From assembly GCA_950295325.1 (NCBI GenBank), contig OX485806.1, positions 55,175,169-55,239,168 of the forward strand: a DNA stretch of 64,000 nucleotides, written 5' to 3'. Shown piece by piece: positions 4,396 through 23,925 of this stretch. This DNA comes from Polytrichum commune. Taxonomy: Eukaryota > Streptophyta > Polytrichopsida > Polytrichales > Polytrichaceae. The notes below the pieces were generated by a model. It was given only the letters and a program-made list of their open reading frames with translations. It was not told the origin of the DNA and did no database searches. A program made the position numbers and the translations under genes. Numbering within the stretch: the first letter of the stretch is position 1; every line of letters starts with the position of its first letter.

Positions 4396-4420
4396 TCCCT
4401 TCTAACTTTCTGGCTTGCAA

Positions 4421-4999
4421 CTCTCTCTCTCTTCCGGATTCCCTCTCTTCCGTCTAACTGCTACAGAGTCCCGGCAAGCCAACTGCCGGTGACTGAAAAG
4501 TGCTGAGTCCCAGCACTCCAACTGCTGGTGGCTTGAAATTACAACAACCTCACCACTCGTTCTCTCAGCAATTTCGTCGTTTGTGAATCAGAAAAAAGTG
4601 GGAAGGAGAAGGAAGGGACTCCTAAATATCCCTCCCCTGTTACCGTTTGGGTTAACGGAAAACGGTTATAACGGTTTTCGGACGGTCTTCCCCCAACCGT
4701 CATAAACCCGTTATAACCGCCACTTCCGGTCCGTTGGGTAATCTTGGCGCGTCCGTTATTTGGTCCGGACCAATGGTTCGGATCATGATTACACGGTCCG
4801 CCCATCCTATTTGACGGACCGGTCATAGTACTTATTTTAAGTCGTTTTATCGCACAAGGCGGGGTTAGAATACTCTATTTCCTAGTACAATTAATTTTAA
4901 CCTAAAAGACCCTATTACCTTCAGATAAGCAAGGAAAAATACGGAAATGGAATCCGTATTTCCGTATTTCCGTCTTTCCGTCGAATTTGGATTCCCACA
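4421..4999. other. Leader/terminal non-coding part of the 4.07-kb insertion
   Basis: Upstream of the minus-strand ORF. It contains repeated CGGTTATAACGG-type motifs (4640-4720) and a hairpin-capable pair ATACGGAAA / TTTCCGTAT near 4940-4975. No promoter can be assigned with confidence. Confidence 0.4.
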
Positions 5000-5004
5000 G
5001 TGTC

Positions 5005-6007
5005 CGCAATGCAAAAGTGGAGAAGTCAAGTGGTTATGATTTGTGGGCCGACCTTAGTTCGCTCAAGGCGGACATAACCTTTGGACAATTATTGGAAATT
5101 TCACCCGTCGCACGAAAGACTCTCAAGGATGGCATGCCCGTCAGTGGAGAATTAGAAAAGTGAAGACTAGAGTGGCCGCTAGAATTCAATCACAAGGAGG
5201 TCGAGATGTGAAGGCCATAGAGATAGAGGTCAACATAGTAGACAAGGTGGTCCCAAATGTGCTAGTGGATGGAGGTAGTAGTTTGAACATTTTGCCGGAA
5301 CACACCATGAAGAAATTGGGATTTGGTCTTACGGGTCCTTCGCCCTTGATTATAAACATGGCAAATCAAAGCTCAACCACACCTTTGGAAATGATTAAAG
5401 ATAGTAGGATGACCACCGGGGGAGAGGAACATTTAGTTACTTTTCATGTAATTAAGATGCATTCCAACAAGGACTCAATCCCCATCTTGTTGGGCAGACC
5501 TTGGTTGAGAATGGCCGATGCCATAGTGGATTGGGGAGGTGCGAAGCCATCCAATACTTATGGTCCTAAGGATAATCGAGTCAAAGTGTCAATTGGGTCA
5601 TTAGAAGGGTGGATGAAGAAGGAATTGTACCTACCATTGGAAGAGGAAGACCTTGACAAAATCAAGGATGAAGGAGGGGAGGCTCTAGTCCGAGTTGTTC
5701 ATCCCGGAAGTCGCAACACCATCACGGACTCGGGTTCGGGAAGTTTAGGTCCTAGGTTTACAATTATGGAGATAATGGGGAGTATGCACAATGGTTAAGG
5801 GAATATCCCGAGTCGGAGTTCGATATATTGGTGACATCTCACCATCCACGTTTGAATGATGAGAGGCTTAGTTCTAGTGGCGAGGATTGTTCGTTGTTGG
5901 AGCCATGTGAGGTGCTCACCGAAGAGGAGTGGATTTTAGGAGGTTTGACGCCTTGGGTGGATAGTGTGGATGATAGTGATGTTAATCTAGTACACGTGGA
6001 TGGGACT
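5005..6007 (+). pseudogene. gag tail and retropepsin-like protease, Ty3/gypsy (broken)
   Basis: This is the continuation of the gag begun at 1-931, followed by the aspartic protease that would cut the polyprotein. The join reads NAKVEKSSGYDLWADLSSLK. Around 5257-5300 is the protease core VLVDGGSSLNILPEHTMKKLG: the catalytic Asp is present, but the usual D-S/T-G is D-G-G. A second conserved block, ILLGRPWLRMADAIVDW, follows at about 5490-5535. A stop at 5161-5163 and a frame change separate gag tail from protease, and another frame change follows near 5750. The acidic spacer after the protease (EEWILGGLTPWVDSVDD) runs directly into the CAAGA duplication of the inserted chromovirus and continues at 13078. 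Confidence 0.8.
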
Positions 6008-6012
6008 CAAGA

Positions 6013-6984
6013 TGTCGCGCACCTCTCCATGAGGAGTGCCCGAAACACCATGGGCGCAAGGGGGACCCCGGAGTGACACCCGGAACTTGTGGCGCCGTTG
6101 GTGAGAGGGCCCAAGTGATCCTAGTGTGGGTGAGGGCCCCGGGCGTTGGGAACGCCTCCCACCCACAGAGGCTAGGAGGCATGAGGGTAAGGCCATAAGC
6201 TATGCGTAGCTCATGGCGTGGTGATTCTAGGAAGCTCAAGAACACCTCAATCGGAGGTGTGAGCTAGGAGTTATGGCCATTTGAGTGGGGCGCTGTCCCG
6301 GGACAGCGCCCTGGTACAGCAGTGCCTGGGAGTGATTCCCGGGACTGCCAAGGTTCAAACAGGCATAACTTCCTCAATACTTGCCCGAATGGGGCAAGTG
6401 AGGAGTCCATCGGCATCTACGTGAAGCGTAGATGAACATGGAGTGGTTGGTTGGCATGATCAGACATCATACAAGGAAGTTATGATGGTCTGAAGCTGCT
6501 GGGGGGTTCTAGGCCCAGCAGCTAAAGGAAAATGTCCACTTGGCCCCAACTCTTGGTAGAGAGACAAGAGGTTGGTTGACGGTGGGGTAGGGGCCCCGCG
6601 TGAAGTCCTAGAGGCTTATATGGGTGAGGTGGTGTGGCCTCACCCACCCGAGGCCGAACGGCAAGGCCTCCATGGGCTTTGGCCTATTGTGAGGCCATAG
6701 TTGCCTAGTATGGTTCGGGTTGTTGTAGTGTTGCTCCGGCAACTCGATGATCAACATAGGATTGGACTTCCATGGATGGAGGTCCACATTGGGGAAATGG
6801 GTTACCGATTAAGGGGTGAGTCCCGAAAGCAAAGTAGGAGGGTTGGTTCCCTCCTATGAACTATTGGTCCGGGGTAAGAGGAGCTATCCATTAGCATGGC
6901 GGAATGCGAAGGGTTAGCGCTCGTAACCTTTGCTAGAAACGAAAATTGGCAAGATTATTAAGGGACCTAGCAAGGGTTGCGACA
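6013..6984 (+). repeat. 5' LTR, subtype A (972 bp)
   Basis: Begins TGTCGC and ends GCGACA, a perfect 6-bp terminal inverted repeat. A perfect 22-bp palindrome lies at 6289-6310 and an 8-bp-stem inverted repeat (CATCTACG...CGTAGATG) near 6414-6434. It differs from the 3' LTR by four substitutions (in the segments ACCCGGAACTTG, CAGAGGCTAG, GCCATAAGC and CTCAATACTT). Confidence 0.97.
6617..6622 (+). promoter_or_regulatory. Possible TATA box of subtype A LTR
   Basis: TATATG follows GAGGCT in the middle of the LTR. The equivalent position in subtype B (near 37588) reads TATATAG, a better TATA box, so this is the likely U3 promoter. The start of transcription is not known. Confidence 0.4.
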
Positions 6985-6986
6985 CT

Positions 6987-6998
6987 TGGTATCAGAGC
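6987..6998 (+). other. Primer binding site for initiator tRNA-Met
   Basis: TGGTATCAGAGC starts 2 bases after the LTR. This is the common plant retrotransposon PBS, complementary to the 3' end of tRNA-iMet. Confidence 0.93.
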
Positions 6999-7039
6999 AG
7001 GGTTCCAATATTTGAGCTAGCACTTTGAGGTAGACATGG

Positions 7040-7340
7040 CTATCAAAAATGCGGGTTATGATGGTGAGCCCGGGGTTTCCAAAAGGTTGTGAGGCTCAAA
7101 TTGGAACAAGGATCATGTGCAAGTGGATTTTGACCATACCATTGATTCTAATGACAATGGTGGGCATGAGGGTGGATTCGGTGAGGAAAATGAAGGAGTG
7201 CTTTGAAAGGGCTCCCGCAAACCTCGAAAAGTATTTGGGGGCTAGAATACCGAATGCATCCGAAAGCTTGGACGGCATTAATGTTGGATTGAAATTCCAA
7301 TTCGAAATGCTTGGAAGGTATTGATGTTGGAATGAATTTG
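7040..7340 (+). pseudogene. gag N-terminal remnant of the chromovirus
   Basis: Reads in shifting frames as a counterpart of the better preserved gag at 37970-38320 (shared ARIPNA, LDG, VGLKFQ). Stops and frame changes remove any function. From about 7340 to 8100 no domain can be followed except the tandem array. Confidence 0.7.
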
Positions 7341-7647
7341 GTGCTAATGAGGCACCCGGGGCATCTTAAGGCCTATGTGCGCTATTCAAACGCACAAATG
7401 AAGGATACACCTAAAACGGACGAGCTTTCTAAGAAATGCATCCTTTTAGGTGGGGTTTTAAAAGCGGGTGGTGGATGCCTTGTTTAAGTCCCCAAGGCTT
7501 CTTGAGGACATGGTGGGGACCATCAAGTTTGCAAGAGCATTGAAGCCGATGGTCCCAAAGAGAAGTTTGGCGGCGCATCACCACAAGTGGCTTTAGCCAA
7601 AGTAGGTCCCAAAGAAATGAGTGCAAATTGTTTGGTCCATTTTAGTT

Positions 7648-7935
7648 AGGCAAAACATGTTGGTGCCGCGGACGGAATGTTGAAAGGTGGCTTTATGCTT
7701 CCAAAACAAATCATACTTGTGCCGCGGACGGAATGTTGGGAGGTGGGTTTGTCCTACCAAGGCAATTCATGTTTGTGCCGCGGACGGAGTGTGGGAAGGT
7801 GGCTTTGTGCTACCAAGGCAAAACATGTTTGTTTTGCGGACAAACTATTAGAAATTGGTTTTGTGGCACCAACCAATTTGTCCCGCGCACGAAATGTTTG
7901 AAGTTGGCTTTGCGGACCAAGCCAAGCCAAGTTAC
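7648..7935 (+). repeat. 56-bp tandem repeat, about five copies
   Basis: The phrase GTGCCGCGGACGGAATG recurs at 7663, 7719 and 7775, then in decayed form near 7831 and 7880, giving a 56-bp period. It lies inside the internal region of the chromovirus, in what would be gag or its tail. Confidence 0.85.
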
Positions 7936-8102
7936 GGAGGACCAAATGTAAGACGATGGCATTGTGACCAAGGCTAGTAGCCTTAAGCCGAGGCCAAGTC
8001 TTTTGTACCTTGAGGCTCAAATGAATGGGAGATATGTCTCATGAGTTGACAAAGAGGCAACGGACTCTTTCATGAGCCCAAAGCTCACAAGGGAGTTGGG
8101 GC

Positions 8103-8432
8103 TTGCCAATTGATAGAGCGGGCAAGCCCACCAAGGTGCGGTTTGGAAAGGGCGAACCGCATGAGACGAAGGAGTTCGCGATGCATGTAACCTTTCAATG
8201 TGGGACATTGGATTTTTGTCAAAATTTCACACCATGTGAAATAGATGAAATGCATGTCATTGTGAAGGCCGCCTTCTTTGAAACTCACATGATAGATGTG
8301 AGGTGCAAGCCGGTGTGCTTGCCGTGCATTATGATGTGTCATAATGACAAAGAATTGAAGTTCAAATTGACAAGGACTCCTATGGTAGGAGGACCCAAGT
8401 TGAATTTGGTCTTAATGGACCAAATTAAATGA
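8103..8432 (+). pseudogene. Chromovirus protease-region fragment
   Basis: An open stretch of 109 codons with the pattern of the protease/pre-RT region of plant chromoviruses: FQCGTLDFCQNF, CEIDEMHVI, AFFETHMIDV, and the end motif LTRTPMVGGPKLNLV. The catalytic DTGA-type core would lie before this and is not seen. It survives as an open island in otherwise broken coding sequence. Confidence 0.6.
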
Positions 8433-8485
8433 AATATGGTAAATATAATGGTCATGGTTCAATTGAAGCAACTCCAAGGAACTCA

Positions 8486-9820
8486 TGGGGAGGCTAGGAA
8501 AGATGGGCCTCCCCCAAACCATACTTGTGGGATGTTGGTGAGATACAAGGATGTATTCACCAATGTGTTGCCCAAAAAGTTACCGCCAAGAAGTGAATTG
8601 CAACTTTGCTCAAGAAGAAAATGAGTTCTTGAGGCATGTGGTGACAAAGGAAGTTGGTGGACAAACATGAAGAATTTCAAGGCAATCCAAGAGGAGAATT
8701 GGCCCTTGATCCAAAAAAAACTTAGATCATTGGTTGGCCTAGCCAACTACTACCACCACTTCATTCTAGATTTGTTTTAAGATTGCTAGGACCTTACTCA
8801 ACTTTTTGAGGAAATGGCTATCCCAAGAGTGGGATGAGCCTTGTCACCAAGCCTTTGGGAAGCTCAAGAGCAAATTCCCTTCACAAGATGTGGTTAAGTT
8901 TCCGGGTTTTCATAAGCATTTTGAGGTGCACATGGAGGCGAAGGATTTTACCATTGGTGGATGTTGATCCAAGATGGATGACCATTGCTTGTGGGAGCAT
9001 TAAGCTCCATGGTTGTCGAATCTTATCCGGCTTGTGCAAGAAATGGTTATCCCAATAGCGGGATGAGCCTTGCCACAAAGTCTTTAAGGAGCTTAAGACG
9101 AAGTTCTCTTCGCCGCCCGTGCTCAAGTTTGCGAAATTTGACAAACCTTTTGAGGTGCATACGGGGGCGAGTGACTTTGCCATTGGCGGATGGTTAACGT
9201 AGGATGGATGGCCATTGCATATGAGAGCGTTAAGCTTGATGGTTATCCGACCTTACCCGACTTGTGGAAGAAATGACTATCCCAAGAGTGGGATGAGCCT
9301 TGCCACCAAGTCTTTGGGGAGCTTGAGAGCAAGTGTTCTTAGACGCCCGTGCTCAAGTTCGCGGAGCTTGACAAACCTTTTGAGGTGCATACGGGGGTGA
9401 GCGACTTTGCCAATGGTGAATTATGTGTAATTGGATGGCCATTACATATGGGAGCATGAAGCTCGATGGTTGTCAAAGAAGACAATCAACTCATGACAAA
9501 GAATTTCTTTGCAATAGTGCATTGCTTGAAGATGTGGCGACACTATTTGGGGTTGCACAAAGCAAAGGTCTACATGGACAATGTGTCCTAAAAGAATTTT
9601 GACATTCAAGCGTAAGTGAGCGTCAAGTCATTGCGGTGACATGATAGTTTGGCGCTTATGAACGTGGATTTGATCCACAAACCGGACCGTGGAAATGTGG
9701 TGCCGGATGCGCGAAGTAGACCGGAAAAATTCCAAGCAATGAGAACCATCCAAACCTTGTGGCTAATGTGTGCCGGCGAAGGAAACTTGTGATGCAAGAT
9801 ACGGGAGGGATAAATTAACT
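8486..9820 (+). pseudogene. Reverse transcriptase / RNase H remnant, chromovirus
   Basis: The start of the RT domain is recognisable (YKDVFTNVLPKKLPPRSE, 8540-8600). The polymerase core, with its YxDD-type site, is deleted. What follows is the RT connection (SLVGLANYYHHFI near 8730 and a SQEWDE motif), then RNase H pieces and HCLKMWRHYLGLHKAKVY (9520-9580), LIHKP and the downstream linker. Many stops occur. The connection segment is present three times in tandem (8815-9480). Confidence 0.8.
8815..9480 (+). repeat. 230-bp tandem triplication within the RNase H region
   Basis: CCCAAGAGTGGGATGAGCC-type segments begin at about 8822, 9051 and 9281, each followed by the same coding block (GAGGTGCA(C/T)A, TTTGCCATTGG, GGATGGCCATTG). 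The period is 229-230 bp and the third copy is partial. The copies differ at many bases, so the duplication is older than the insertion of this copy. Confidence 0.85.
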
Positions 9821-9831
9821 ACCCCAAAGCA

Positions 9832-11283
9832 CAAAAGCTTTTAGGTGAGCTTCGCAAGAGCAAGGTGCTCAAAGAGGTTAAGTTGGTGAACGGATTGTTC
9901 AAGTGCAAGCAAAGTTGGGTGTATGTGCCACAAGGCAAGTTGAGGCTATCGGTTTTGAAGGAGGAATTTGATAGTCCTATTGCCGGCCATAGAAGAGAAA
10001 AAGAAAACCACCATAGAATGGTGTCAAAGAGGTACCGTTGGCGGTGCATAAAGGAAGATATAGCCTACTTTGTGAAGGCTTGAATCAAAGTGCCAAGTGA
10101 ACCGAGCCTCTTACCAAAAGCAAGGCGGTTTCTTGCAACCGTTGCCTATCCCGTCGGCGCCATGGCATAGTATGTGCATGGACTTGATCACAAGTTTGCC
10201 GGAGTCACATGGATATGATGCCATCTTGTTGATGGTTGAGCGGTTTGCCAAGTTGGCACGCATGGTGCCGATTGTGGAAACCGCCACCGCGTTGGAGACC
10301 GCATAGCCTTTTCTCAAAGGATGGTTGAGGCACCACGGGTTGCCAAAAGTGATTGTGTGGGATCAAGATCCAAAGTTCACAAGTGCATTTTCAATGCATT
10401 TCTCTAAGGAGGTCGGAATGAAACTAAGGTTTAGCACGACCTTGCATTCCCAAGTGGATGAGAAAGCGGAGGATGTGAATGGAGTCTTGAAGCAATCCTT
10501 GAGGAACTTGGTGGGGGCGGACCAAGGAGATTGGGCGGACTATGTGAGTCGAGCGGAGTGTAATTGCAATGTAGCCACGCACTTGGCTACCAAGGGGTGG
10601 TCTTTCGTGGTGGCTTATGGAGTGGATGCGCTCCAACCTATTAACCTAGCTCTCGAGGGGGCACATTCAACACTAGAGTTCAACCAAGATGGTGAGGACT
10701 TGGCCAAGGATGGTGAACAAGTCTTGGAGATGACCAAGTTGTTGGTGGAGAAAGCCCGAAGGTGCTACGGAGTGCAAATCAATGCCGGAAGACGCGAAGT
10801 GAAGAATGAGGTGGGCCAAAAGGTGTTGTTGAATGTGGACAACTTCACTTAGCCGGAAGGCCTCACTCCAAAGTTCATGTCCAAAATTGGAGCTCCGTTT
10901 TCCATTGTGGAACAAGTGTTCAAGGACATGTATAATTTGGAATTACTGCCCGAGATCAAAGTGCATCCGACATTTCATGTCTCATTACGAAAGTCATTTT
11001 AGGACGACACCTTGTGGCCCAATCACAAGCAAGTGATTAGGCCACGTCCCGACCTTGTGGAGGTCATTTGGAACATGATGTAGGAGGGCATCCTCAAGTG
11101 TAGGAAGCCCAAGTGAAAATGAAAGAAAATGTACAAAGGAGTACTTGGTGAAATGGTGAGGATACCATGAGAAAGAAACCGCTTGGGTGGCGGCAAGAGA
11201 CATGGTGAACATCAATGAATAGGTGAAGCACTTTGAAGAAACTAAGGCTAAGGATTCCAATAAAATGAAGCGTAGGCATTGAT
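9832..11283 (+). pseudogene. Integrase with chromodomain, chromovirus (broken)
   Basis: The integrase zinc region (GHRREKENHH, then IKCQVNRASYQKQ) leads into the catalytic core (MDLITSLPESHGYDAIL; VIVWDQDPKFTSAF; STTLHSQVDEKAEDVNGV), the GPY/SH3-like part (VLLNVDNF, FHVSLRKSF) and a chromodomain (YLVKW, GYHEKETAWVAARDMVNI). Damage includes a stop in place of the first zinc-finger cysteine (10081-10083), a stop near 10304, TAG at 10850-10852, and frame changes before the chromodomain. The conserved S before the second catalytic Asp is W. The frame ends at TGA 11281-11283, just before a purine run (GTGGGGGAGAG, near 11301). Confidence 0.88.
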
Positions 11284-12100
11284 GAGGACATCAATCTCCT
11301 TTAGTGGGGGAGAGACGCTAGTAGCACACTTAGCTTCGAGGTTAATTACTCCACAACATGAACTTGTTCTTTGGCTTGAGGGAATAAAGTCCAAATTTTA
11401 GTGGTGCAAAGAGAAAAGTATGAGATGAGGTCCTAGTCTTGTACTTGTGCTTGGTTAATGGAAGAGGGGGAATAGATATGCCAAACTAGGTTGGGTAAGC
11501 CGAGTAATTGGGGGCCATGGCTTGGAGGGGCCTTGGATAAAACCAAGAAACTTCTTAGTTGTGGGCTTGTCCGGGCGGGGGCAAGGTGATGGCGCGTGCT
11601 CATAAAAGTGCTACCCGCGAGCTAACGAGAGTTGGCGCATGGGAGTCATGAACCCATGTCTCGAAAGAGCAAAGTGGGAACCGAGTCGGGCGGGACTTGG
11701 CATCACCCCCGTGCGATCGATCGAGGCGTGGCTTAACAATGGAAAGCCATCTCGGAGTTGCAACCGAGACAACTTAGTGGAAGCGTTGAGGTCTCGCCTA
11801 GATGTGTCACGTTAGGCTAGTGGAGCCTAACGGGGGAGGCCCCAAAGGGGGGGCAACCCAAGTGAGTCCCAAAGTAGGTGGGTCTACTATAGATTAGGTC
11901 TTTGGATGAGAGATCCAAGGTCGCTAACGGACCACCTAGGAAGGACACCTTTGGAATTATGCCAAATTTGAAGATGCATTGTGGGGGTCGCGCCCTAAGG
12001 TAAACACAATGCCGCACCATAGAGGATGGCAACTTGAGAATTGGTGTGCCGACTACGAGTATAAACGATGAGGGCATCGACTCCGTTTGGTGGGGGTGAG
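11284..12100 (+). other. 3' non-coding region with polypurine tract
   Basis: About 800 bp separate the chromodomain from the 3' LTR. A polypurine-like run occurs right after the stop codon (near 11301), and a second one, GGTGGGGGTGAG, abuts the LTR at 12100. The second is in the position needed to prime plus-strand synthesis. The first may be the tract of an ancestral, shorter element. Confidence 0.65.
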
Positions 12101-13072
12101 TGTCGCGCACCTCTCCATGAGGAGTGCCCGAAACACCATGGGCGCAAGGGGGACCCCGGAGTGACACCCGGGACTTGTGGCGCCGTTGGTGAGAGGGCCC
12201 AAGTGATCCTAGTGTGGGTGAGGGCCCCGGGCGTTGGGAACGCCTCCCACCCACAGAGACTAGGAGGCATGAGGGTAAGGCCATGAGCTATGCGTAGCTC
12301 ATGGCGTGGTGATTCTAGGAAGCTCAAGAACACCTCAATCGGAGGTGTGAGCTAGGAGTTATGGCCATTTGAGTGGGGCGCTGTCCCGGGACAGCGCCCT
12401 GGTACAGCAGTGCCTGGGAGTGATTCCCGGGACTGCCAAGGTTCAAACAGGCATAACTTCCTCAACACTTGCCCGAATGGGGCAAGTGAGGAGTCCATCG
12501 GCATCTACGTGAAGCGTAGATGAACATGGAGTGGTTGGTTGGCATGATCAGACATCATACAAGGAAGTTATGATGGTCTGAAGCTGCTGGGGGGTTCTAG
12601 GCCCAGCAGCTAAAGGAAAATGTCCACTTGGCCCCAACTCTTGGTAGAGAGACAAGAGGTTGGTTGACGGTGGGGTAGGGGCCCCGCGTGAAGTCCTAGA
12701 GGCTTATATGGGTGAGGTGGTGTGGCCTCACCCACCCGAGGCCGAACGGCAAGGCCTCCATGGGCTTTGGCCTATTGTGAGGCCATAGTTGCCTAGTATG
12801 GTTCGGGTTGTTGTAGTGTTGCTCCGGCAACTCGATGATCAACATAGGATTGGACTTCCATGGATGGAGGTCCACATTGGGGAAATGGGTTACCGATTAA
12901 GGGGTGAGTCCCGAAAGCAAAGTAGGAGGGTTGGTTCCCTCCTATGAACTATTGGTCCGGGGTAAGAGGAGCTATCCATTAGCATGGCGGAATGCGAAGG
13001 GTTAGCGCTCGTAACCTTTGCTAGAAACGAAAATTGGCAAGATTATTAAGGGACCTAGCAAGGGTTGCGACA
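12101..13072 (+). repeat. 3' LTR, subtype A (972 bp)
   Basis: Same length and ends as the 5' LTR, followed directly by the CAAGA duplication. Four substitutions separate the two by visual comparison. Confidence 0.97.
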
Positions 13073-13077
13073 CAAGA

Positions 13078-13598
13078 GGAGGAGGCTATCTTGGAGGCTT
13101 CTAAGTTAGAGGAACCTTTACATTTTAGGAGAGGGAAGGCCCATTTAGAGGTAGGAGTAGAGGGTCAAGAGGAGTATTCTTCGGATGAGGCTCCTAATCT
13201 TTCCGAATTGGATAAGGTAGCTAGAGTAGCTAGAAGGGCCACTACAGAGTTAGAAAGGCAGAATGTAATTCTTCATGATAGAGAGAGGCCTTATGTCATT
13301 CATGATTTGGAAGATAGTGAGATGGGAGAATGGGAATGTTCGGGAATTCCTTTGGATGAGTTTGATGGTGTTGGCAATGCCAAAGTGGAGAAGTCGAGTG
13401 GCTACGATTTATGAGCCGATCTTAGCTCACTTAAGGCCTATATTATCTTCGGACAATTGTTGGAGATTTCACCCGTGGCTAGGAAGACTCTCAAGGAAGG
13501 AATGTCGATGACTAGGAGGACTAGGAAGGTTAAGCCTAGGATGGCGGCTATAGTTCAAATGCAAGGAGGAAGACGGGATATCAAACCAATAGAAATTG
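13078..13598 (+). pseudogene. Second copy of gag tail and start of protease, outer element (broken)
   Basis: Reading resumes from the spacer cut at 6007 and immediately repeats the gag tail: EVGVEGQEEYSSDE, NVILHDRERP, GEWECSGIPLDEFDGV, KVEKSSGYDL. It then reads QLLEISPVARKTLKEGM and QMQGGRRDIKPIEID, matching 674-931 plus 5005-5230. So the outer element carried two tandem gag-tail/protease units before the chromovirus arrived. A TGA at 13412-13414 replaces Trp. The protease core is missing: at about 13598 the sequence jumps into reverse transcriptase. Confidence 0.8.
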
Positions 13599-14662
13599 AC
13601 GATTTTCGCGGAGTTTCTAAATGATTTTATGAAAGTGTTTTTGGATGATTTTAGTATATATGGGACAAAGGCGGATCATATCAAGCACCTTAAGCTTTGT
13701 CTCCAACGATGTAGAGAGTGTGGGTTAAGTCTTAATCCGGAGAAGTGCATGATTTGTGTGACCTCGGGGAGATTACTTGGTCATGTGGTTTGCAAAGAGG
13801 GACTTTTGATAGTTCCAAAAAGATCTCCGTGATTCAAAACTTACCACCACCAACAAATGTCAAGAGTTTACGAGCTTTCTTAGGCTCGGTAACATACCAT
13901 AGGAGATTCATATGGATGTTTGCACAAATTACGAGACCTCTTTATACTCTCCTCAAAAAGGATGAAGCATTCGAATGGACGACAAATTGCCAACAAACAT
14001 TTGAACTAGTCAAGAGACTTTTAACTACGACACCAATATTAATGGCTCCAAATTGGTCAATGGAATTCCATGTCCATTGTGATGCATCAAACATAGCCAT
14101 TGGAGCAGTACTAGCGCAAAAGGTGAATGGAAACATCGACTCGCCGATTTACTATGCAAGCCGATTATTAAATCAAGCGGAGAAAAATTATAGCACGACG
14201 GAACGAGAAGCCTTAGCAATGGTATATTCGGTAAACAAATTCCGACACTACCTTTTGGCGAATCATTTCGTGTTCTACGTGGATCATCAAGCATTGTTAT
14301 ACTTGATAAATAGACCGATAATCTCGTGGAGAATCGCAAGATGGATGCTTCTTCTACAAGAATACGATTTTGAGATTGTGTATATGCCTGGAAGACGACA
14401 CGTGATGGCGGATCACCTCTCAAGAATCGACAATGGAGAACCACCTACCGGAGTTAATGATCAACTACCGGATGCCAATTTATTTTGTATGGAAGTACTA
14501 GAAGAGGAAGAAGATTACATGGAAAAAAATGAGCAAGTGAATGAAGAGGATGAACGAGGAGAAGAAAGTGAGACACCATGTCTAGAATGGTACATGGTAT
14601 ATGTCCAACCAACAGAAGATTGGAGAAAACCGTTCAAAGAATATCTCAAGTATGGAAAATAG
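13596..14662 (+). pseudogene. Reverse transcriptase C-terminal part and RNase H, Tat/Athila-like
   Basis: Only the last third of RT remains. It includes the polymerase site as FLDD (MKVFLDDFSIYG near 13627-13660), then the thumb (CGLSLNPEKC). A one-base loss in an A run near 13820 shifts the frame, giving VPK then KISVIQNLPPP. From there the frame is open to 14659 and carries the connection (RAFLGSVTYHRRFI) and RNase H with its acidic residues in CDAS, TEREAL and VDHQAL, ending in PGRRHVMADHLSRI. After an acidic spacer comes the first DWRKPFKEYL module and then TAG at 14660-14662. The same frame continues beyond this stop into the 2350-codon ORF. Confidence 0.85.
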
Positions 14663-14725
14663 TTAACAATCGGAACAACGGAAGAGGAACAAACGCGCAT
14701 AAAACGGGCTAGTGAGCCCTACATC

Positions 14726-17700
14726 ATGGATGGAGATAAATTAATACGAATTAGCCCAAGTGGAGAATCAAAAACATGCATAGCGGGACAAGTTATTGAG
14801 GAGATCATCGCGGAAGCGCATGAACAAGAAGGTCATCATCAAACCTTCGGAAATACTTGGTTCACCATATTAAGTGGACCTTATTGGTGGCCAACAAGAA
14901 AGAGGGACGTAGCAAGTTATTGCGAAGAATGTCTGGTTTGCTTACGACAAAATGAAGGACGAATATATGAACTAGAAAATGATACTCTAGTACTAGACTC
15001 GGTATCGGATGACGAGTCAACTACGGAAGAAAACCACTCGACGGATTGGAGAACACCCTATTTTGAGTACTTAAGAAATGGACAAGTAAATGGAGAAAAT
15101 ATTACCAATGAAAAACAACTTCGATGGGCAAACAAATGCAAGCGGTTCATTCTCAACGGAGGAACCTTGATAAGATTACTACCCAACGGAGATACGCGAA
15201 TATGCGTCACACGAAGTCGAGGAGGAAAACTCATAGCGGCCACTCACCACGCAAAAGGCAAGCATTTGACCTTACCTATGACTAAGCAATTAATATTCTT
15301 TAGTCCTTATTGGTGGCCTACAATTGACGAAGACATCAAGTATCACGCGGAATACGAATGTGGAGAATGCATGTTACAACTCAATGGGAAGCAAGAAGAG
15401 ATGAATCTAAAAGATAAGCAAATGACTACATTAAAGAAGATGTCATCATCCGATTGGAGAAAACCTTACGTCGAATACTTGTCATTCGGAAAGGTAACTA
15501 GCAATGATTTAACCGGAGAAGAGAAGGAACGGGTTGCGAATAGAAGTCAATTCTTCGCCATCATGAATGGGAAACTAATGAGACGATTTGTCGCCAATGA
15601 GATACCTAAAGAATGCATATCGGAAAATCGGATACAAGGATTTTTAAAGGAACTTCATGGAAAATATCAAACATGTGAAGAAATGATAAAACAAGCAACA
15701 CAAGGACCATATTGGTGGCCTACGATGACTCGCGATATTCAAAGTTTCATCAAACAAAGAAATGGTACTAGACCAACGACACAAAAGAATGAATCAACCA
15801 ATTTGGATTGGAGAGCACCAATAGTAGAGTACTTGATTCAAGGAACAACCGGAGATCGGCATCCATTTGAACAAGAGAATGGAACTTACTTTATGGAAGA
15901 GGGAGAATTACGGAAGGACGTAGACCACGGAGAAACAAAGATATGTATCGCGGGAGATCCAATCAAGCATCTAATCAAACGAGTGCATGAACAAAATGGT
16001 TATCATCTCAACCCGAACGATACTATTCAACAAATTCTCAACGGGCCTTATTGGTGGCCTACTATAGCACAAGACACGGGACATTATATCAATGGAGAAT
16101 GTCCGAGATACAAGAAGAAAGCAACAACTAAAATACAATGCGGAGCAATTACCACCGATCCACAAGAAGATTGGAGAACACCATTTATTGACTACTTATC
16201 GCATGGGAGATTGACAACACCGGCAACGACTTCTCAAAGACAACAAATAGCGATAAGAAGTAGACCTTTTCAACTAATCAATGGAGACCAATTAATCAAG
16301 GAAGGAGCCGATGGCATGAAAATGAGATGTGTATCCGGACCAATTACCGAGGCGATCATTGCCGAAGCACATGAGGGCATTGCGGGAGGACATTTCGCGG
16401 CAAACATCACATTACACAAAATATTAACGGCTCTTTATTGGTGGCCTACTATGAAAATGGATGTGTATATGTATTGCAAAGAATGCGACATATGCCAAAG
16501 AGTGGGACCAAAAGTCTCCAAATCCGCACAACCATTACACCCAATCATGCCTACGGAAGTCTTTCAAAGATGGGGATTAGACTTTATAGGTCCAATCAAT
16601 CCTCCCGCCAAAGGTACTAAAAATAGATACATCATCACCGCTACGGATTACACTACCAAATGGGTTGAAGCGAGAGCACTTAAGGATAATACCGCGGCAT
16701 CTACCGTGAGATTCATATTTGAGGAGATCATCACCAAATTCGGATGTCCGATTGAACTAGTTAGTGATCAAGGGAGTCACTTTCTAAACAAGACAATCCA
16801 AATTCTAACCAAGACATTTATGGTCTTGCATCGTAAATCAACAACTTACTACCCTCAAGCCAACGGACAAGCCGAAAGCACGAACAAAGTCATTAAAACA
16901 ACACTTACCAAAATGGTAAACGCCAATCGCACGGATTGGGACACTAAACTATATGCGGCATTATGGGTGTACAGAACGGCATACAAAGTCACCACCAAGC
17001 ATACACCATTTTCGTTGGTATTTGGAACGGAAACATTACTTCCCTTAACGTTCATTTACAACGAGGAGAATCTCCAAAGAAATCAAGAATGGCATCCCGT
17101 TCTTAAACGGAGAATGGAACAATTAAAGACATTAGACTTGACCCGTATTGAAGCGGAGGAAAATATCGAGCATACCCAAACTATGAGAAAGAGAAGGCAA
17201 GATAAAACTTTATTGGAGGGAAAGAGGTGCAAACATTGCAAGAAACCCTCTTATGATACTAAGGAGAAGTACGACAAAACTCATCAAGCAAAGGAGAAAT
17301 TACAAGATAACAAAAGTCCCAAATTTTACAAGGGTCAAAAGATTTTGTGGCATCAAAGGATGAACAAACCCGGTCCAGGCAAATTCCGAATTCGATGGAG
17401 TGGACCTTACGAAATTACGGAAATTTACGATAACAACACCGTAGATGTGAGCACATTGCAAGGAGAAAATCTTGGAAGGGTGAATATGAGTAAGATTAAA
17501 CCTTACCATGAACCCCTTGAAGCAAAGGCATATGTTTTAGAAGTGGATGACGCCACGAACTCACCATTTGACAATACAAGCACAAATTGTATAAATGGAT
17601 CCATTGATACCAACCACCACAAGGAAGAATCAAGCCATTCAAGGAAACCATGCTCATTTTACGAAGGACAAAGAGTGGTGACCAAACGTATATCAAACAA

Positions 17701-20700
17701 ACAAGTCAACATACCTTTTGAAAAGCAAGAATGGGTGGGCCCATACACCATCACCAGAATCCATGAAGACGATACCATTGAGATCAAGACTATTCATCAC
17801 AAACAATTGGGACGATGGCGATCAAAAATGTTTTTACCATATGACAGGGTTAATCCCAACCAAGTTAACACTTTTGATCAAGGAGGAATGGAAATTTCTA
17901 CATCCCCGGATTATGATGAAGTTCACCATAAAATGCTCGAATGTTATTCCGTACAGCCGTTGAGAATGGGAACTTATGACACATCACTTACAAAAAATAA
18001 AACGGAAATACGGGTAGAAAATTACCCTATCCAACCATTACCAAAAAGGACCTCAATTCCACGAACAACAAATGGATTACAGCCAACAACCACCAAAGAT
18101 TTTATTCAAATATTCGGGAAAGAAGATAACTACGACACAAATGTGCCACATATACAACCATTGAAGGGCCCCACCACAAGCACACTTTACGATGATATGA
18201 CGATAACCTTTATAAAGGACGACACACATACCAATTACGACACCACAAACAACACATCAAATTATACAACAGCCTATATGGCAACCATAATGAGGTTACA
18301 TTACGTGTGCGAGAGTTGGTACTTAATACTTATAGTACTCTTACACAGCAATTGGTACTTATTACAATGGAATTCATCCATCCATTCAGCAAACAACTTT
18401 GTAACACAAGAAGTTACCAAGCCTTCCAAACCACAAAGTAATTACGTAAATGTACAGGTGGTTAAGTTTAATTGGCAACCAAACCTTGACAATACTCAAG
18501 GGAGAGAACCAAGCATGTTAGTACAATTGTTAAAATCTAAATTAAACTCCAACTTAGTTTTTATTGGAGGGGTCCGCACAAGGCGAACCCCAAGAAAGGC
18601 GAGAACACTGCACAAGGCAGCGTTCTCTTTAATTTTTATCTGCACAAACCACACCACAAGTCAGGAAGAAGTAAAACAGGCAAAAATTACCAAAGGGGTC
18701 AGTAAACCTTGTCGCACCAAAAGTATGCCACCTGGAAGCCAAGTCGATTTTCACAGGGTCACCAAAACCAGCTGGAACTGCCAGCAATCAGACAGGGGAG
18801 TAACCGATTCAACAAACCGCATCATTACCCAGACTGGGCTAAGCAAGCCCAAAACAGAATCACCTGAACTATTACCAAAGGGGCGAAACACTTTCAGTTC
18901 TCTTTCTCACTTGATCAAAGTGGAGCCCAAGAAAACTCTGCCCTGCTCAAAGAAACTTTTGGTTTGGTCGAAGAGCGATAGAAGCATCATACAGTTTAAC
19001 AATTACGTCAAATCAGAAATAGCTCGTAGTCTATTTTGTTTAGCCTGCAATTTGTTTCAAGAACCGAACAAGTCTGTTTTCATAAACTTCGAATCTCTGG
19101 TAGATCAGCTGTTAGCTGAGGAGAACTCTGATCACTTACCACTTAGGAGTACTTCCACTCAGTTGATTCTTAGGGATAATAGTCATCAGCCGGTAATCAG
19201 TGAAGGTTTAGTCCAGCTGCTAGATAGTATTCAAAACAAGTTAGGTATTGTCACCATGAAATTAACCCCCAAGGAGAAAGGAAAGTCCGCGATGTCAAGG
19301 TCCATTGAAGACATTATTTTTAGCACCGAAATGGCAGCTCTCGATTATGAGCCCACCAGAGAAGAGGAAACATTTTTACAGTTGATAGGTCTTGATAGAT
19401 TTGTTACCAAGGTCACTTGGGAAATTTTGAACCCATCTGTCATCCAGGAGGTGATTGCAAATCTAGACATAGAGACCATGCAGACAAGATTGAATGGCAA
19501 AGTCATACCAATTTTTGGTAAAGGATGGAGACAAAAGATGCGAGCGCTATTCTACATCAACACATTCATGGCTAAGCGGGAACCAGGAACGCCAAGGATA
19601 CACGCTGCAGACCTATTTCCAAACATCAAGGAGAAGATGAGGACTAAGCTTGGCACCTGCAAGATAAATGACTGCACCATCATAGAGGCAAGAAAGCCTC
19701 TTAAGTTCTTTAACTCTTTATTCTTGCTTCGCACCAGTGCAAACACAATTTCATGCTCAGCTATAGCACACATTCAAGATGCACTCAATGGAAAAGAGGT
19801 TGATTGGCCAGGGTTATTTTATGAGTATATCAAAGCGGAACTCATTACCTTAAAAGAGGAACTTTACAAAGACAAAACTACTAACCTACGGACGCTAGTG
19901 GGACCCCCCATCACAATGTTATTAGCTTCTGAGGGATTGCTCACAGTCCAACAAGAAATTGACGCAGGCATGCTTATGCCTTCACAATTAGAAGACAAAG
20001 CACCAAACAAAAAGAGGAAAATTGAGGATCAAATGGAACATACAAAAGGGAACTCATCCAAGGAAGGTGAAAAGCCACTGATTCTGGTGGCAAGAATGGA
20101 ACCAGCAACAGATCAAATTGTGCTCATAAGCACAAAAGGTACATCACAATTTGATTCAAAACCATTACAAGAAATTCTACACAAATTCAACCACACAAGC
20201 AAGCTCTTGGAGAATTGGATCACAGGTACTGCCCAATTCAACACCGGAGCAGCGCACAAAGAGGAACTTATTTCAGTTTCTGGAAATCAAAATCCAAACT
20301 CACAGGACCGAACTTCGGAGTTGGGAATCCAACTACAACACCTACAGACTGAATACACTATAACGGAGGAAAAATGTCGACAAGAAGCCGCAGATGCCTT
20401 GCTTCAAAACCAGGAACTGCAACAAAAATACACACACCTACAGACTCAATATGCTGCCGCAGAAGACAAACTCCGGCAGATCGCCGAAACCAACCAGGCA
20501 CAAATGAAAGAACACCAGCTCAAGCACGACCTCCTCCAAGAAAAATACACCACAACAGTCCAGAGACATCAACAGATAACGGCGGAAGAGCAACACAAAT
20601 TTCTCAAACAACAACAGATACTGGAGACTGACCTCAAGAATCGTACCAAGACTGCAGCCATAGCCGCACAACAGCTCCGTCAATTTCGGCAGACAGTCTC

Positions 20701-21778
20701 CGCAATTCGCCAAGAGGCCACGGCGAAATTCCAAACCTTCCAGCAAGAAGTCGACGACCACAAAGCACAACTACAGAAATTAGCCGCAAACACAGCCACA
20801 CAGGAAAACCCAGATCGAATACAAGAGTTGGCCAAAATTGAGGCCTTTGACCTCTGGGTGCGAGACCCATCCAACTCTGACACCGAAAATCAAATTACGG
20901 TACAGACACTTCTGCAGAGAGTCACAACAAAGATTAGCCATACACTGAAAACTCTCAAAACAGAGTTACGACAAGTAACCACAGAAAGAGATGAATTGCA
21001 AGGCAGATTGGAGCAACAGGAGGAAGAGGCCACTCAACATCCGAAATGGGACAATCTGTTAGGTTTGAGCAAAATAGAAGATCCGGGTAACCTCATCACA
21101 GCAACAATGAAAAACCTACCACCTCCCATAAGCATCTATCAATATTACCAGGCTTATAAGCCAATGATCTTCAACTGGAGCAACCTCCCAGATCTGAAAA
21201 TCCAAAACCACTTATCAAAAGAACAGTTTCAAATTTTGTGGGCTCAAGCGAATTCGGCAGCCAGGGACATTCTTACTTTTATGTGGATTCTGAAACATCT
21301 GATAGTACCAAAGGGAGTAGTTGAAATCACTACCGCAAACCCAACTTTTTACCTCACTCGATTCTGCATTGGAGCCCTTACTCACATAAACCGACATCAC
21401 GAGGAATTTTACATGAACATCGACAACAGGAACGCCTTACCCCAGATCGAACCCTATGATTCAGAGTTAACCACAGAAATTCAAGCAATGGCGGACACTC
21501 AATGTCCAGAGTTCGCATCCGCATTGGACATACTTGCGGGAGAAGACACAACATTGTTACATGAGGCCACACAACACCATCAAAATCTGGTACGCAAGTT
21601 TCCAGATTCTTTCCCACCAGCATTTCACAGGATTCAATTACATGGCTATATATCACGAGCATTAGAAGATAGAAAACACACACTGGAACAGAGGAAAATT
21701 TCCACACCCCATGCACGAACACTACTCTACCTCCCACAATACGATCCGGGCACTATGAAGATTGCAAAACGATCCTGA
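14726..21778 (+). CDS. Multi-module integrase plus accessory-domain polyprotein (2350 aa)
   Basis: Integrase joins element DNA to the host chromosome. This frame is open for 7 kb and continues, across one TAG, the RT/RNase H frame upstream; the Met at 14726 is merely the first after that stop. In order: a module of roughly 115-130 residues (DWR.P..EYL, a core, PYWWPT or YWWPT, and an H2C2-like zinc site) occurs five times, with YWWP codons at about 14882, 15308, 15710, 16049 and 16436. Modules 1 and 5 keep HHCC, 2 keeps most of it, 3 has lost it and 4 has lost one Cys. Then one catalytic core (D619, D681, E717: D,D-35-E), two SH3-like C-terminal domains (KFYKGQKILW at about 865 and SFYEGQRVVTK at about 977), a hydrophobic stretch (about 1190-1215), an accessory domain (about 1520-1745), coiled coils (about 1860-2100) and a C-terminal domain of unknown role. 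The stop is 17 bases before the polypurine tract. Whether the host or other elements use it is unknown. Confidence 0.85.
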   Translation: MDGDKLIRISPSGESKTCIAGQVIEEIIAEAHEQEGHHQTFGNTWFTILSGPYWWPTRKRDVASYCEECLVCLRQNEGRIYELENDTLVLDSVSDDESTTEENHSTDWRTPYFEYLRNGQVNGENITNEKQLRWANKCKRFILNGGTLIRLLPNGDTRICVTRSRGGKLIAATHHAKGKHLTLPMTKQLIFFSPYWWPTIDEDIKYHAEYECGECMLQLNGKQEEMNLKDKQMTTLKKMSSSDWRKPYVEYLSFGKVTSNDLTGEEKERVANRSQFFAIMNGKLMRRFVANEIPKECISENRIQGFLKELHGKYQTCEEMIKQATQGPYWWPTMTRDIQSFIKQRNGTRPTTQKNESTNLDWRAPIVEYLIQGTTGDRHPFEQENGTYFMEEGELRKDVDHGETKICIAGDPIKHLIKRVHEQNGYHLNPNDTIQQILNGPYWWPTIAQDTGHYINGECPRYKKKATTKIQCGAITTDPQEDWRTPFIDYLSHGRLTTPATTSQRQQIAIRSRPFQLINGDQLIKEGADGMKMRCVSGPITEAIIAEAHEGIAGGHFAANITLHKILTALYWWPTMKMDVYMYCKECDICQRVGPKVSKSAQPLHPIMPTEVFQRWGLDFIGPINPPAKGTKNRYIITATDYTTKWVEARALKDNTAASTVRFIFEEIITKFGCPIELVSDQGSHFLNKTIQILTKTFMVLHRKSTTYYPQANGQAESTNKVIKTTLTKMVNANRTDWDTKLYAALWVYRTAYKVTTKHTPFSLVFGTETLLPLTFIYNEENLQRNQEWHPVLKRRMEQLKTLDLTRIEAEENIEHTQTMRKRRQDKTLLEGKRCKHCKKPSYDTKEKYDKTHQAKEKLQDNKSPKFYKGQKILWHQRMNKPGPGKFRIRWSGPYEITEIYDNNTVDVSTLQGENLGRVNMSKIKPYHEPLEAKAYVLEVDDATNSPFDNTSTNCINGSIDTNHHKEESSHSRKPCSFYEGQRVVTKRISNKQVNIPFEKQEWVGPYTITRIHEDDTIEIKTIHHKQLGRWRSKMFLPYDRVNPNQVNTFDQGGMEISTSPDYDEVHHKMLECYSVQPLRMGTYDTSLTKNKTEIRVENYPIQPLPKRTSIPRTTNGLQPTTTKDFIQIFGKEDNYDTNVPHIQPLKGPTTSTLYDDMTITFIKDDTHTNYDTTNNTSNYTTAYMATIMRLHYVCESWYLILIVLLHSNWYLLQWNSSIHSANNFVTQEVTKPSKPQSNYVNVQVVKFNWQPNLDNTQGREPSMLVQLLKSKLNSNLVFIGGVRTRRTPRKARTLHKAAFSLIFICTNHTTSQEEVKQAKITKGVSKPCRTKSMPPGSQVDFHRVTKTSWNCQQSDRGVTDSTNRIITQTGLSKPKTESPELLPKGRNTFSSLSHLIKVEPKKTLPCSKKLLVWSKSDRSIIQFNNYVKSEIARSLFCLACNLFQEPNKSVFINFESLVDQLLAEENSDHLPLRSTSTQLILRDNSHQPVISEGLVQLLDSIQNKLGIVTMKLTPKEKGKSAMSRSIEDIIFSTEMAALDYEPTREEETFLQLIGLDRFVTKVTWEILNPSVIQEVIANLDIETMQTRLNGKVIPIFGKGWRQKMRALFYINTFMAKREPGTPRIHAADLFPNIKEKMRTKLGTCKINDCTIIEARKPLKFFNSLFLLRTSANTISCSAIAHIQDALNGKEVDWPGLFYEYIKAELITLKEELYKDKTTNLRTLVGPPITMLLASEGLLTVQQEIDAGMLMPSQLEDKAPNKKRKIEDQMEHTKGNSSKEGEKPLILVARMEPATDQIVLISTKGTSQFDSKPLQEILHKFNHTSKLLENWITGTAQFNTGAAHKEELISVSGNQNPNSQDRTSELGIQLQHLQTEYTITEEKCRQEAADALLQNQELQQKYTHLQTQYAAAEDKLRQIAETNQAQMKEHQLKHDLLQEKYTTTVQRHQQITAEEQHKFLKQQQILETDLKNRTKTAAIAAQQLRQFRQTVSAIRQEATAKFQTFQQEVDDHKAQLQKLAANTATQENPDRIQELAKIEAFDLWVRDPSNSDTENQITVQTLLQRVTTKISHTLKTLKTELRQVTTERDELQGRLEQQEEEATQHPKWDNLLGLSKIEDPGNLITATMKNLPPPISIYQYYQAYKPMIFNWSNLPDLKIQNHLSKEQFQILWAQANSAARDILTFMWILKHLIVPKGVVEITTANPTFYLTRFCIGALTHINRHHEEFYMNIDNRNALPQIEPYDSELTTEIQAMADTQCPEFASALDILAGEDTTLLHEATQHHQNLVRKFPDSFPPAFHRIQLHGYISRALEDRKHTLEQRKISTPHARTLLYLPQYDPGTMKIAKRS

Positions 21779-21795: not shown

Positions 21796-21810
21796 GGGAG
21801 GGGGGTAAAA
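21796..21810 (+). other. Polypurine tract
   Basis: GGGAGGGGGGTAAAA directly precedes the TGTTAAGC start of the LTR, the standard position for priming plus-strand DNA. Confidence 0.85.
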
Positions 21811-23925
21811 TGTTAAGCATAACATTCTAAATCACAAAGAGATTACAAATGGAACTAAGGATCGAAGACAGGCCCTAACCCATCACCGAAATGGAGAGAA
21901 GCTCGAACACTGGAGAGCCTCGGCCTCGGGCTCGGCTATGGAGCTCGGCCACAGCCTTAGGGCCCTTTCCGCGGTTTCACACACTTGACGCGCGGTAATA
22001 GGTCCCAGTACCCGCGGCAATGGGTACCCAGCTCGTATAAAGGGGACTTAGGACTTAGAGAAGCATGAAAGTAAGTACGTAAGGACTATTAGATAAGTAT
22101 ACTAGGACTTAGAGGAAGAATATATGAAGACATATAGGATAGAAGATTTTGAGAACCAATGCCTATGTGATAAGGCATACTAATGGAGTATATAGGAAAG
22201 TAGTAGAATATGATTAGGGAATATATTATGTAGGATTTTGAAGAGACATGATTATGGGAAATATATATAGCATGAAGGATTTTGAGGAAACATGATTATG
22301 GAATTGATGGGAATTTTAGATATTAACTCAAGATGATATTATGAAGACATTAAGGGGAATATAGGAATATGGTACATTCTATTAGCATGATCATCAATCA
22401 ATCGACATGAAGATTTGATTGAATTCCAAAAAGAGTTTAGAATGTAGCCACAACGAGGAGTTAGGGAAATCTTGGAATTATGAACATTAGAGAGGAAGAA
22501 CGGTTGTAACCGTTTATGATAGATAGAATCTACATATTTTGAAGATAGTTAGTTATCTAGGGAAGTGGAAGTTTACAACCACTCTTAGTATAGATTTTGG
22601 ATAAGAAGAAAAGACTATATAAGGGAAGCATTTTAGGAGACCTATACCTCATTTTCTACACAACGAAGTTATCTTAAATTTGAGTGTCAAGAATCACTTG
22701 AAGCTTTTGTAACTCTCCTCTCGAGGAACCTTTGCAATACACTTATCTTTTCTACAAATGCGTGTGACCTTTCTACCTCTCTCTCAAATTGTCTTACAAA
22801 GTTTGTCAAGCGGTACTTGGAACTTGAGTGATTGAGCAACCGAGAGTAGAGTAGATTGAGTAGACTCTTTTGAGAAAGAACTCAAAAGATAATGCGAGGG
22901 TGAGAACAAAGCGCTCAAGACAAATTGAAGAATCAATGGGACTTTGAGAGAGATTGAATTGAGAAAGCGATTGTTAAACTTGAGTGAAAGAAACAAGATT
23001 ATCTCTCAAGCGGAACTTATCATTGATCTCCTCAAAAGGGAATTATAATTATTCATATGATTAATTGATTGAAGAAATATATGCATGTTATGATTTGAGC
23101 AAAATTACTTAACTCCTTCAAAAGAGGAGGAACTTATTATTATAAACTACATAATCGACTTATACATATTATACTACATATTGATTGATTGAACTTATGA
23201 TTGACAAGAATGATGAAGACATTAATTCACGTCAAAGTTTGAATACATATGAAGGAAGTAATATTGATATAATATAACCCACTTACTACAATTGTTATTG
23301 AACCTCTTTCTTTCACAATACTTTGTGAGTTGTTGGATGTCATTAACAATTGAAGAAGAGTTCTTCTCTCTTGAGCAAAACTCAAGAGAGTTACAATTAT
23401 TCTTGTTATTAAAGCACTTTGAAGATCAACGTGACATTGCAAAACAATTACTGAAGTGTGCATGAACTTATAACTACTATAAGTATAATTGTCAAGTTAC
23501 AATATTATAAGTAGTAACACTTGAGCTTAAAAAGGAAGATTCAAAGATATTATATGTTCTTCATTATAAGATTATTATCATTGATATGATTGATGTTATG
23601 AACTACAAAACTTAAGGATTCAAACAACATATTGAAACTATATTATTATATGTTATTGTTACACCTCTTGAAGCTTTCTTAAATCTAAAGGTTCTTATTG
23701 TCAATGATGCCTTACATTGAGAGTAAGAATTAAGATAATGAGATTGTGTTCACTCCAATAATTATATTCATATCATAAGGAGAAGAGAGGGATTATTAAT
23801 TTGAGACCGAACATATTAATGAGGCACGGTAGTTCTCAAGCGAATATAAATTTACGTGATGTCTCACCGTGAGTCTTCTTGAGCTAATTTGCAAGGGAAC
23901 GACCTACGGGGTGCATCATGAGGCG
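21811..23925 (+). repeat. 3' LTR of the outer element (3' end unresolved)
   Basis: Begins TGTTAAGCATAACATTC after the polypurine tract. It holds TATAAA (22036) and TATATAA (22616) boxes and no coding sequence. No clear CA-ended terminus with a matching flank was found. The limit used is the point where a foreign LTR stub starts, so part of 23000-23925 may not be LTR. Confidence 0.6.
22616..22622 (+). promoter_or_regulatory. Probable TATA box in the 3' LTR
   Basis: TATATAAGGG, about 800 bp into the LTR, followed after roughly 35-45 bp by CATTTTCTACACAAC. This fits a U3/R promoter; an upstream TATAAA at 22036 is an alternative. Confidence 0.5.

Follow-up and report, generated by a model that had tools for sequence, protein, structure and literature searches.

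In Polytrichum commune, a group of Ty3-type retrotransposons encodes integrases in which the N-terminal unit, an N-terminal extension (NED) followed by an H2C2 zinc-binding domain, is repeated five, eight or eleven times ahead of a single D,D-35-E catalytic core and an SH3-like C-terminus. Our starting point was a five-module copy in a 64,000-nucleotide stretch of forward strand (assembly GCA_950295325.1, contig OX485806.1, positions 55,175,169 to 55,239,168), hereafter the window. The group is monophyletic, and every module position tested is under purifying selection, with ratios of nonsynonymous to synonymous substitution rates (dN/dS) of 0.04-0.27. This is a real integrase architecture, kept by selection, of which we found no description, and it departs from the three-domain plan of Ty3 and retroviral integrases both in its five, eight or eleven HHCC domains and, in the five-module family, in a doubled SH3-like domain.

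Repeated N-terminal modules ahead of one catalytic core

The reading frame that contains the window integrase is open from 14663 to 21775 (2371 codons; window coordinates throughout); upstream, the same frame encodes RNase H and is closed by a TAG at 14660-14662. The H2C2-containing modules sit between RNase H and the catalytic core, with starts at 14618, 15044, 15452, 15806 and 16169 on the forward strand, and both the reading frame and module profiles bear out the original prediction, made from the letters of the window, that five modules of the DWR...YWWPT type follow one another in frame. The features of this region are listed below, with bit scores for PF17921, an H2C2 profile independent of the window sequence.

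13597..14659, + strand: 3' part of the reverse transcriptase (RT) and RNase H, from similarity to loci L002, L003, L005, L006, L009 and L014 that starts at 13597, and from three-frame translation
14618..14977, + strand: module 1, NED-like region and H2C2 domain with full HHCC (39.0 bits on 14663-15040; TAG 14660-14662 inside)
15044..15424, + strand: module 2, full HHCC (14.5 bits)
15452..15805, + strand: module 3, full zinc ligand set in 0 of 19 copies (22.1 bits)
15806..16165, + strand: module 4, HHCY in the window and HHCC in 18 of 19 copies (22.9 bits)
16169..16549, + strand: module 5, core-proximal conventional N-terminal domain, HHCC (55.6 bits)
16550..17290 (3' border approximate), + strand: catalytic core, D,D-35-E (rve, PF00665, E 1.3e-10)
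17309..17530 (borders approximate), + strand: first SH3-like C-terminal domain, 48-64% identical to one stretch in the 8- and 11-module loci
17636..17800 (borders approximate), + strand: second SH3-like domain, from repeat comparison; five-module family only

On the whole frame, PF17921 gives an E value of 5.3e-36 in four stretches. Among modules 1 to 4, whose H2C2 identity had been predicted, module 1 passes the cut-off of 25.5 bits, as does module 5 (two of the five in all), modules 3 (E 1.7e-4) and 4 (E 9.4e-5) lie just under it, and module 2 is weak (E 0.039). The RNase H matches PF17917 (RT_RNaseH; E 5.4e-34 on 13736-14659). The predicted rve identity of the core holds, and its D,D-35-E triad is at open reading frame (ORF) residues 640, 702 and 738 (window 16580, 16766 and 16874; spacings of 61 and 35 residues), the same residues that had been numbered 619, 681 and 717 from the first Met of the frame. 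Doubling of the SH3-like domain was likewise confirmed by a two-sequence comparison (34% identity over 50 amino acids (aa), E 2e-9) and was found only in the five-module family: at E 1e-5 the second domain was matched in 10 five-module loci and in zero 8- or 11-module loci. In the window copy, modules 1, 2 and 5 have all their zinc ligands, and those of modules 3 and 4 are lost or incomplete. The earlier reading of modules 1 and 5 as complete and 3 and 4 as decayed is thus correct for this copy, but the loss in module 4 is private to it, and only module 3 has lost its ligands family-wide.

Array families, their relatives and their history

The genome (407.8 Mb, 64 contigs) was searched with residues 1-646 of the window integrase, which gave 107 matches, from 68 scored of 1504 candidates. 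At 15 places, counting the window, the full query is matched with 84-100% identity, and these are near-full five-module copies; further places are partial, and three loci (L009, L010 and L011), at 99.98% identity, do not count as independent. Another 33 places on seven large contigs are more distant (54-60% identity), with frames of up to 3716 aa. We examined 20 of these 33, counting modules with profiles built from the window modules and then with a wider set. Between the RNase H end and module 1 there are 111 nt in 16 of the 20, and 199-219 nt in 17 of 20 five-module loci; module counts are exact wherever this end was seen. Twelve loci have eight modules (L025, L027-L035, L038 and L040; the array of L040 has internal frame changes) and four have eleven (L021, L022, L023 and L036; in L036 a frame change splits one module). 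L024 and L026 gave nine hits each and are cut by the edge of the examined stretch, while L037 and L039, without an RNase H end, have five and eight modules left, L037 being 5'-truncated.

An independent Pfam scan of the L021 array identified H2C2 with E 2.7e-60 in eight stretches, and PF17921 matches 13 of the 16 distal modules examined (modules 2 and 4 of the window and 14 taken from two 8-module loci) at E <= 1. At L038 an aspartyl protease (E 0.0004, under the cut-off) is followed by RVT_1 (E 1.1e-25), RNase H (E 2.3e-33) and then the modules, which is the protease-RT-RNase H-integrase order of a Ty3-type long terminal repeat (LTR) retrotransposon; RNase H, modules and rve are also present in the window. 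The D,D-35-E core was found in 25 of the 29 frames checked, two of them single-module (22 by pattern; L002, L023 and L036 by eye). The same genome also harbours single-module relatives: a continuous RT-to-integrase match to the single-module protein P0018 occurs at 24 places (45-49% identity), and the two of these that were read have one module each in frames of about 2000 aa.

Relatives elsewhere were sought among 5.8 billion proteins by a search that needs shared five-residue words and could therefore miss more distant arrays. The window integrase returned 17 protein matches, 13 with one module and four, from ENA contigs (P0001-P0004), with 5, 6, 5 and 6, some of these proteins being cut at the start. 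Since these four are 95, 78, 82 and 77% identical to the nearest examined 8- or 11-module locus, we take them as a further data set, whose host may be the same or a related one. When the 8-module stretch was the query (candidates of 1205-3836 aa), there were 13 matches, none with at least three modules; the single-module ones include Riccia sorocarpa and Pinus taeda, and two from Fagus have two modules each. The two-module Fagus stretch in turn gave 238 matches, and 113 of the 118 new ones among the 120 listed have two modules and five have one; as the query itself was two-module, this shows pairs in many proteins and not their frequency. P0024, P0032, P0070, P0147 and other Tat-like proteins have two NED-H2C2 units by profile, and precomputed Pfam annotation shows one, two or no zinc models for them. 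No relatives were found in viral contigs searched with the core-proximal module. The related multi-module elements to which the original prediction had looked are thus supplied by the 15 near-full five-module places, their 8- and 11-module sisters and the ENA proteins; relatives with a single module are present as well.

A maximum-likelihood tree of 81 modules (10 of 42 loci and 8 of 148 proteins, with splits read from the tree files) separates all distal array modules from the core-proximal, single and Tat modules with an ultrafast bootstrap (UFBoot) of 99. The core-proximal modules, on short branches, group together (78), and a single clade (98) unites the first modules of all three array families. 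Within the 11-module form, positions 1 and 4, 2 and 5, and 3 and 6 make one clade each (100, 100 and 100), and 9 and 10 go together (100). The families share orthologous positions, and a three-module block is duplicated in the 11-module form. Positions 2 and 3 of L031, with eight modules, group with 11-module positions 2 and 3 (99 and 98), whereas those of the other three 8-module loci in the tree group with positions 5 and 6 (86 and 100); whole three-module blocks have therefore been exchanged or lost in phase between the two forms. The two blocks of the 11-module form share 66-68% DNA identity (three loci compared) and distal modules share 24-38% protein identity with the first module, the ortholog of the first module excepted; these values rule out a recent duplication.

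All Tat modules in the tree fall in one clade (99), so that the angiosperm module pair arose separately and is apparently an independent duplication; the module tree disfavours a common origin with it. In a tree of cores (27 sequences) the array elements are monophyletic (100) and the single-module Riccia element is nearest to them, with weak support (61), deeper nodes being weak as well. Because single-module relatives share the genome, a single-module ancestor is the simplest reading. The distal modules increased in number through tandem duplications, which involved whole modules as well as a three-module block, and the tested positions went on to diverge under purifying selection.

Selection was measured by the Nei-Gojobori method as mean dN over mean dS, with pairs outside a dS of 0.03-2 dropped (91-102 of 105 pairs kept for 15 of 20 five-module loci, and 58-125 of 136 for 17 of 20 distant loci). 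For modules 1 to 5 of the five-module family dN/dS is 0.20, 0.16, 0.27, 0.24 and 0.09, and for the last eight positions of the 8- and 11-module loci it is 0.11, 0.14, 0.13, 0.13, 0.15, 0.17, 0.14 and 0.04; the respective cores give 0.12 and 0.06. A frame control on the five-module array (7 copies, 21 pairs) returned 0.17 in frame and 1.43 and 1.22 out of frame. The proposal that these are old repeats retained by selection is thereby upheld, as regards both their divergence and the dN/dS comparison between copies. Zinc ligands tell of conservation by position (L020, L036, L037 and L040 are left out of the table): HHCC is kept at modules 1 to 5 in 18, 18, 0, 18 and 16 of 19 five-module copies, the module 5 exceptions being L016, L018 and L019, whose genome-search match is also shortened, and at 8-module positions 1 to 8 in 17, 17, 16, 16, 15, 12, 17 and 17 of 17 distant loci. 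The extra positions of the 11-module form have it in all 11 cells.

The window copy and its surroundings

The window copy is dead, since its RT is 5'-truncated, the RT frame is broken and a stop lies in module 1. Similarity to sister copies spans only 13597 to about 17965 and begins inside RT, so that the RT start is absent; three-frame translation shows that the remaining RT shifts frame; and the codon occupied by the TAG is no stop in 17 of 17 other aligning copies. A different stop, two codons upstream of that position, is present in L015. Downstream of the integrase lie the following features.

18302..21775, + strand: third coding region, in frame with pol here, with no Pfam family above cut-off
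21796..21810, + strand: polypurine tract, from the sequence
21811..23918, + strand: 3' LTR of 2108 bp, TG...CA, from LTR copies elsewhere

Part of the third coding region (19289-21739) is 25-37% identical to a separate 3' reading frame of the 8- and 11-module loci (L024 7236-9779), and in its position the region resembles the additional ORFs of Retand elements as described in the accessible part of PMC11963269. The LTR borders are set by two copies elsewhere that begin exactly at 21811 and by most full matches stopping at 23918-23919. Same-strand LTR pairs surround L014 (C6:39049067 and 39064882) and L010 (C6:10210019 and 10226703), with outer-end distances among the listed LTR matches of 17.5 and 18.5 kb; with its paired LTRs, TG...CA ends and polypurine tract, the five-module family is an LTR retrotransposon. 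At C1:77773671-77789300 of the genome (G000), two LTRs that score equally against the window LTR surround a copy matching query residues 1-418 only, possibly a young element with a shortened integrase.

Directly upstream of the truncated array copy is another LTR element (6013-13073), whose 973-bp LTRs (6013-6985 and 12101-13073) are 99.6% identical; stretches related to this LTR occur near 32464, 36984, 40941, 44262 and 55601. When seven array loci were searched with Tandem Repeats Finder (TRF) for tandem DNA repeats as binding sites, a 72-bp array was found in L040 and short arrays in three others; the L040 repeat (16-2296 and 4124-5443; 31.7 and 18.2 copies) lies in and beside the broken 8-module copy. 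Among the 150 rve matches listed, many rve-bearing frames, often of 1363-1373 aa, cluster once per large contig, at C1:33.4, C2:47.3, C3:33.2, C4:35.5, C5:46.6, C6:25.5 and C7:13.6 Mb, a pattern as expected for centromere-seeking retrotransposons. Plant-type TTTAGGG repeats number 500 forward and 538 reverse in the genome, with 0 in a reversed-pattern control, and the listed places are all at the start of contig C1.

Known integrases and possible roles of the array

Among solved structures the integrase of prototype foamy virus (PFV, a spumavirus; NED, N-terminal domain (NTD), catalytic core domain (CCD) and C-terminal domain (CTD); PDB 3l2q) is the best relative of the window integrase (E 3.3e-25). 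A profile of the distal modules alone matches its residues 29-104 (E 1.5e-6), a segment that spans the zinc domain and the last part of the N-terminal extension before it. PFV integrase has a single NED-NTD unit, whereas five, eight or eleven lie on one chain here. Ty3 integrase (PDB 7q5b) is matched by the window integrase with E 1.2e-16 and weakly by the distal profile (E 0.79). According to the accessible part of PMC8632968, it consists of NED, HH-CC domain, core and SH3 domain, with one NED-NTD and a C-terminal chromodomain; in contrast, no chromodomain family was found at E <= 1 beside the arrays in window 14663-18301 or L024 3350-5212. The closest single-module integrases, Riccia sorocarpa P0019 and the frames of about 2000 aa in the same genome, have no array, and angiosperm Tat-like integrases (Fagus, Prunus and JGI contigs) have a tandem NED-H2C2 pair and thus two modules only. 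Many angiosperm Tat-like proteins also carry an additional RNase H (aRH, PF13456), whereas none of the 16 matches to it in the genome is within 100 kb of the examined array loci. As Tat lineages without aRH, or with aRH outside pol, are described in liverworts and mosses in the accessible part of PMC10508981, its absence is compatible with Tat membership of the arrays; zinc-domain arrays are not mentioned in that part.

No description of an integrase with such an array of HHCC or zinc domains was found in the titles and abstract starts listed from 5.39 million open papers, a scope that mostly excludes subscription papers. Zinc is absent from the accessible main text, supplements excluded, of the plant LTR surveys PMC6317226, PMC10508981 and PMC11963269, and HHCC from the two of them searched for it. 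Within this scope the claim that no integrase of this layout had been described stands, with the addition that a two-module version exists in angiosperm Tat-like elements.

As for function, our tentative preference, which we rate somewhat short of an even chance, is that the array is a conventional catalytic unit with extra DNA- or factor-binding heads, most likely for multivalent binding, in cis, of the cDNA ends of the element itself. The core-proximal module, which is the slowest evolving and lies on the same side of the tree as the modules of single-module relatives, would do the ordinary intasome job, and the added distal modules would be extra binding heads on the same chain whose contacts with the cDNA ends might replace those that other integrases get from flanking subunits. 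We favour contact with LTR ends because the N-terminal extension has this effect in Ty3, where the accessible part of PMC8632968 describes the NED as stabilising LTR contacts. Several observations weigh against the proposal. Module 3 of the five-module family has the full ligand set in no copy, usually keeping the first H only, and yet its dN/dS is 0.27, which suits a protein contact better than zinc-dependent DNA binding; this module is probably a protein-protein or spacing part. At position 6 of the 8- and 11-module loci the full set is absent in 5 of 17, and a search of the five-module LTR for a motif array equal to the module number found none. The copies, moreover, are partly dead and not independent, which makes the dN/dS values rough.

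The next best reading, to which we give somewhat lower odds, is that the distal modules contact chromatin proteins or target DNA as a host-factor tether that steers insertion and replaces the chromodomain. An interaction with TFIIIC is reported for the Ty3 NED in the same part of PMC8632968, the window frame (14663-18301) has no detected chromodomain, and the strong divergence of distal positions from one another is as expected with different partners. A pure peptide binder, however, need not keep zinc ligands, and these are kept at most positions; contact with cDNA ends is rated higher because both ligands and extension are mostly kept. We also consider, as a rather unlikely elaboration, that each NED-H2C2 position might recognise a separate DNA stretch, in an LTR end or in a target, or a separate host partner, with specificity changing by in-phase gain, loss and exchange of modules; the mosaics of the 8- and 11-module forms are a hint toward such exchange.

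Less probable again is that the array, within an unprocessed Gag-Pol, binds element RNA or cDNA during packaging and reverse transcription in place of the Gag zinc knuckle. No CCHC knuckle was seen in the L038 frame, which has about 200 residues before the protease, or in that of L030, which starts inside the protease, and frames of up to 3716 aa suggest a single Gag-Pol frame; against this, Gag is seen in part, a knuckle may sit further upstream, and the NED-H2C2 unit is an integrase part. It is quite improbable that recombination multiplies modules that are merely tolerated: array length does change, the 8- and 11-module forms differing by an in-phase three-module block and the 5'-truncated L037 having five modules left, but dN/dS is well under 1 at all tested positions with a frame control, ligands are conserved position by position, and many loci show identical counts. 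Being truncated and broken, the window copy taken alone could suggest an assembly artefact or a private rearrangement of one locus, but that account is left with practically no credence and is ruled out by the 15 near-full and 33 distant places on seven large contigs and by P0001-P0004, related elements having 5, 8 or 11 modules.

Integrases are usually described as having a single zinc domain, a single core and a single SH3 domain, and as obtaining extra domains through added subunits. In the lineage described here the N-terminal unit has been multiplied on a single chain, to as many as eleven copies, and the tested units have been kept under selection; module-wise recombination is also seen to shape a retroelement enzyme. 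The two-module integrases of angiosperm Tat-like elements add that domain annotation does not always show the pair. If each position did read its own sequence or partner, an integrase domain would here have been made into something like a zinc-finger array. A single genome offers a natural series of 1, 5, 8 and 11 modules, and comparison along it can test what NED-NTD contacts contribute to targeting and to the assembly of the intasome.

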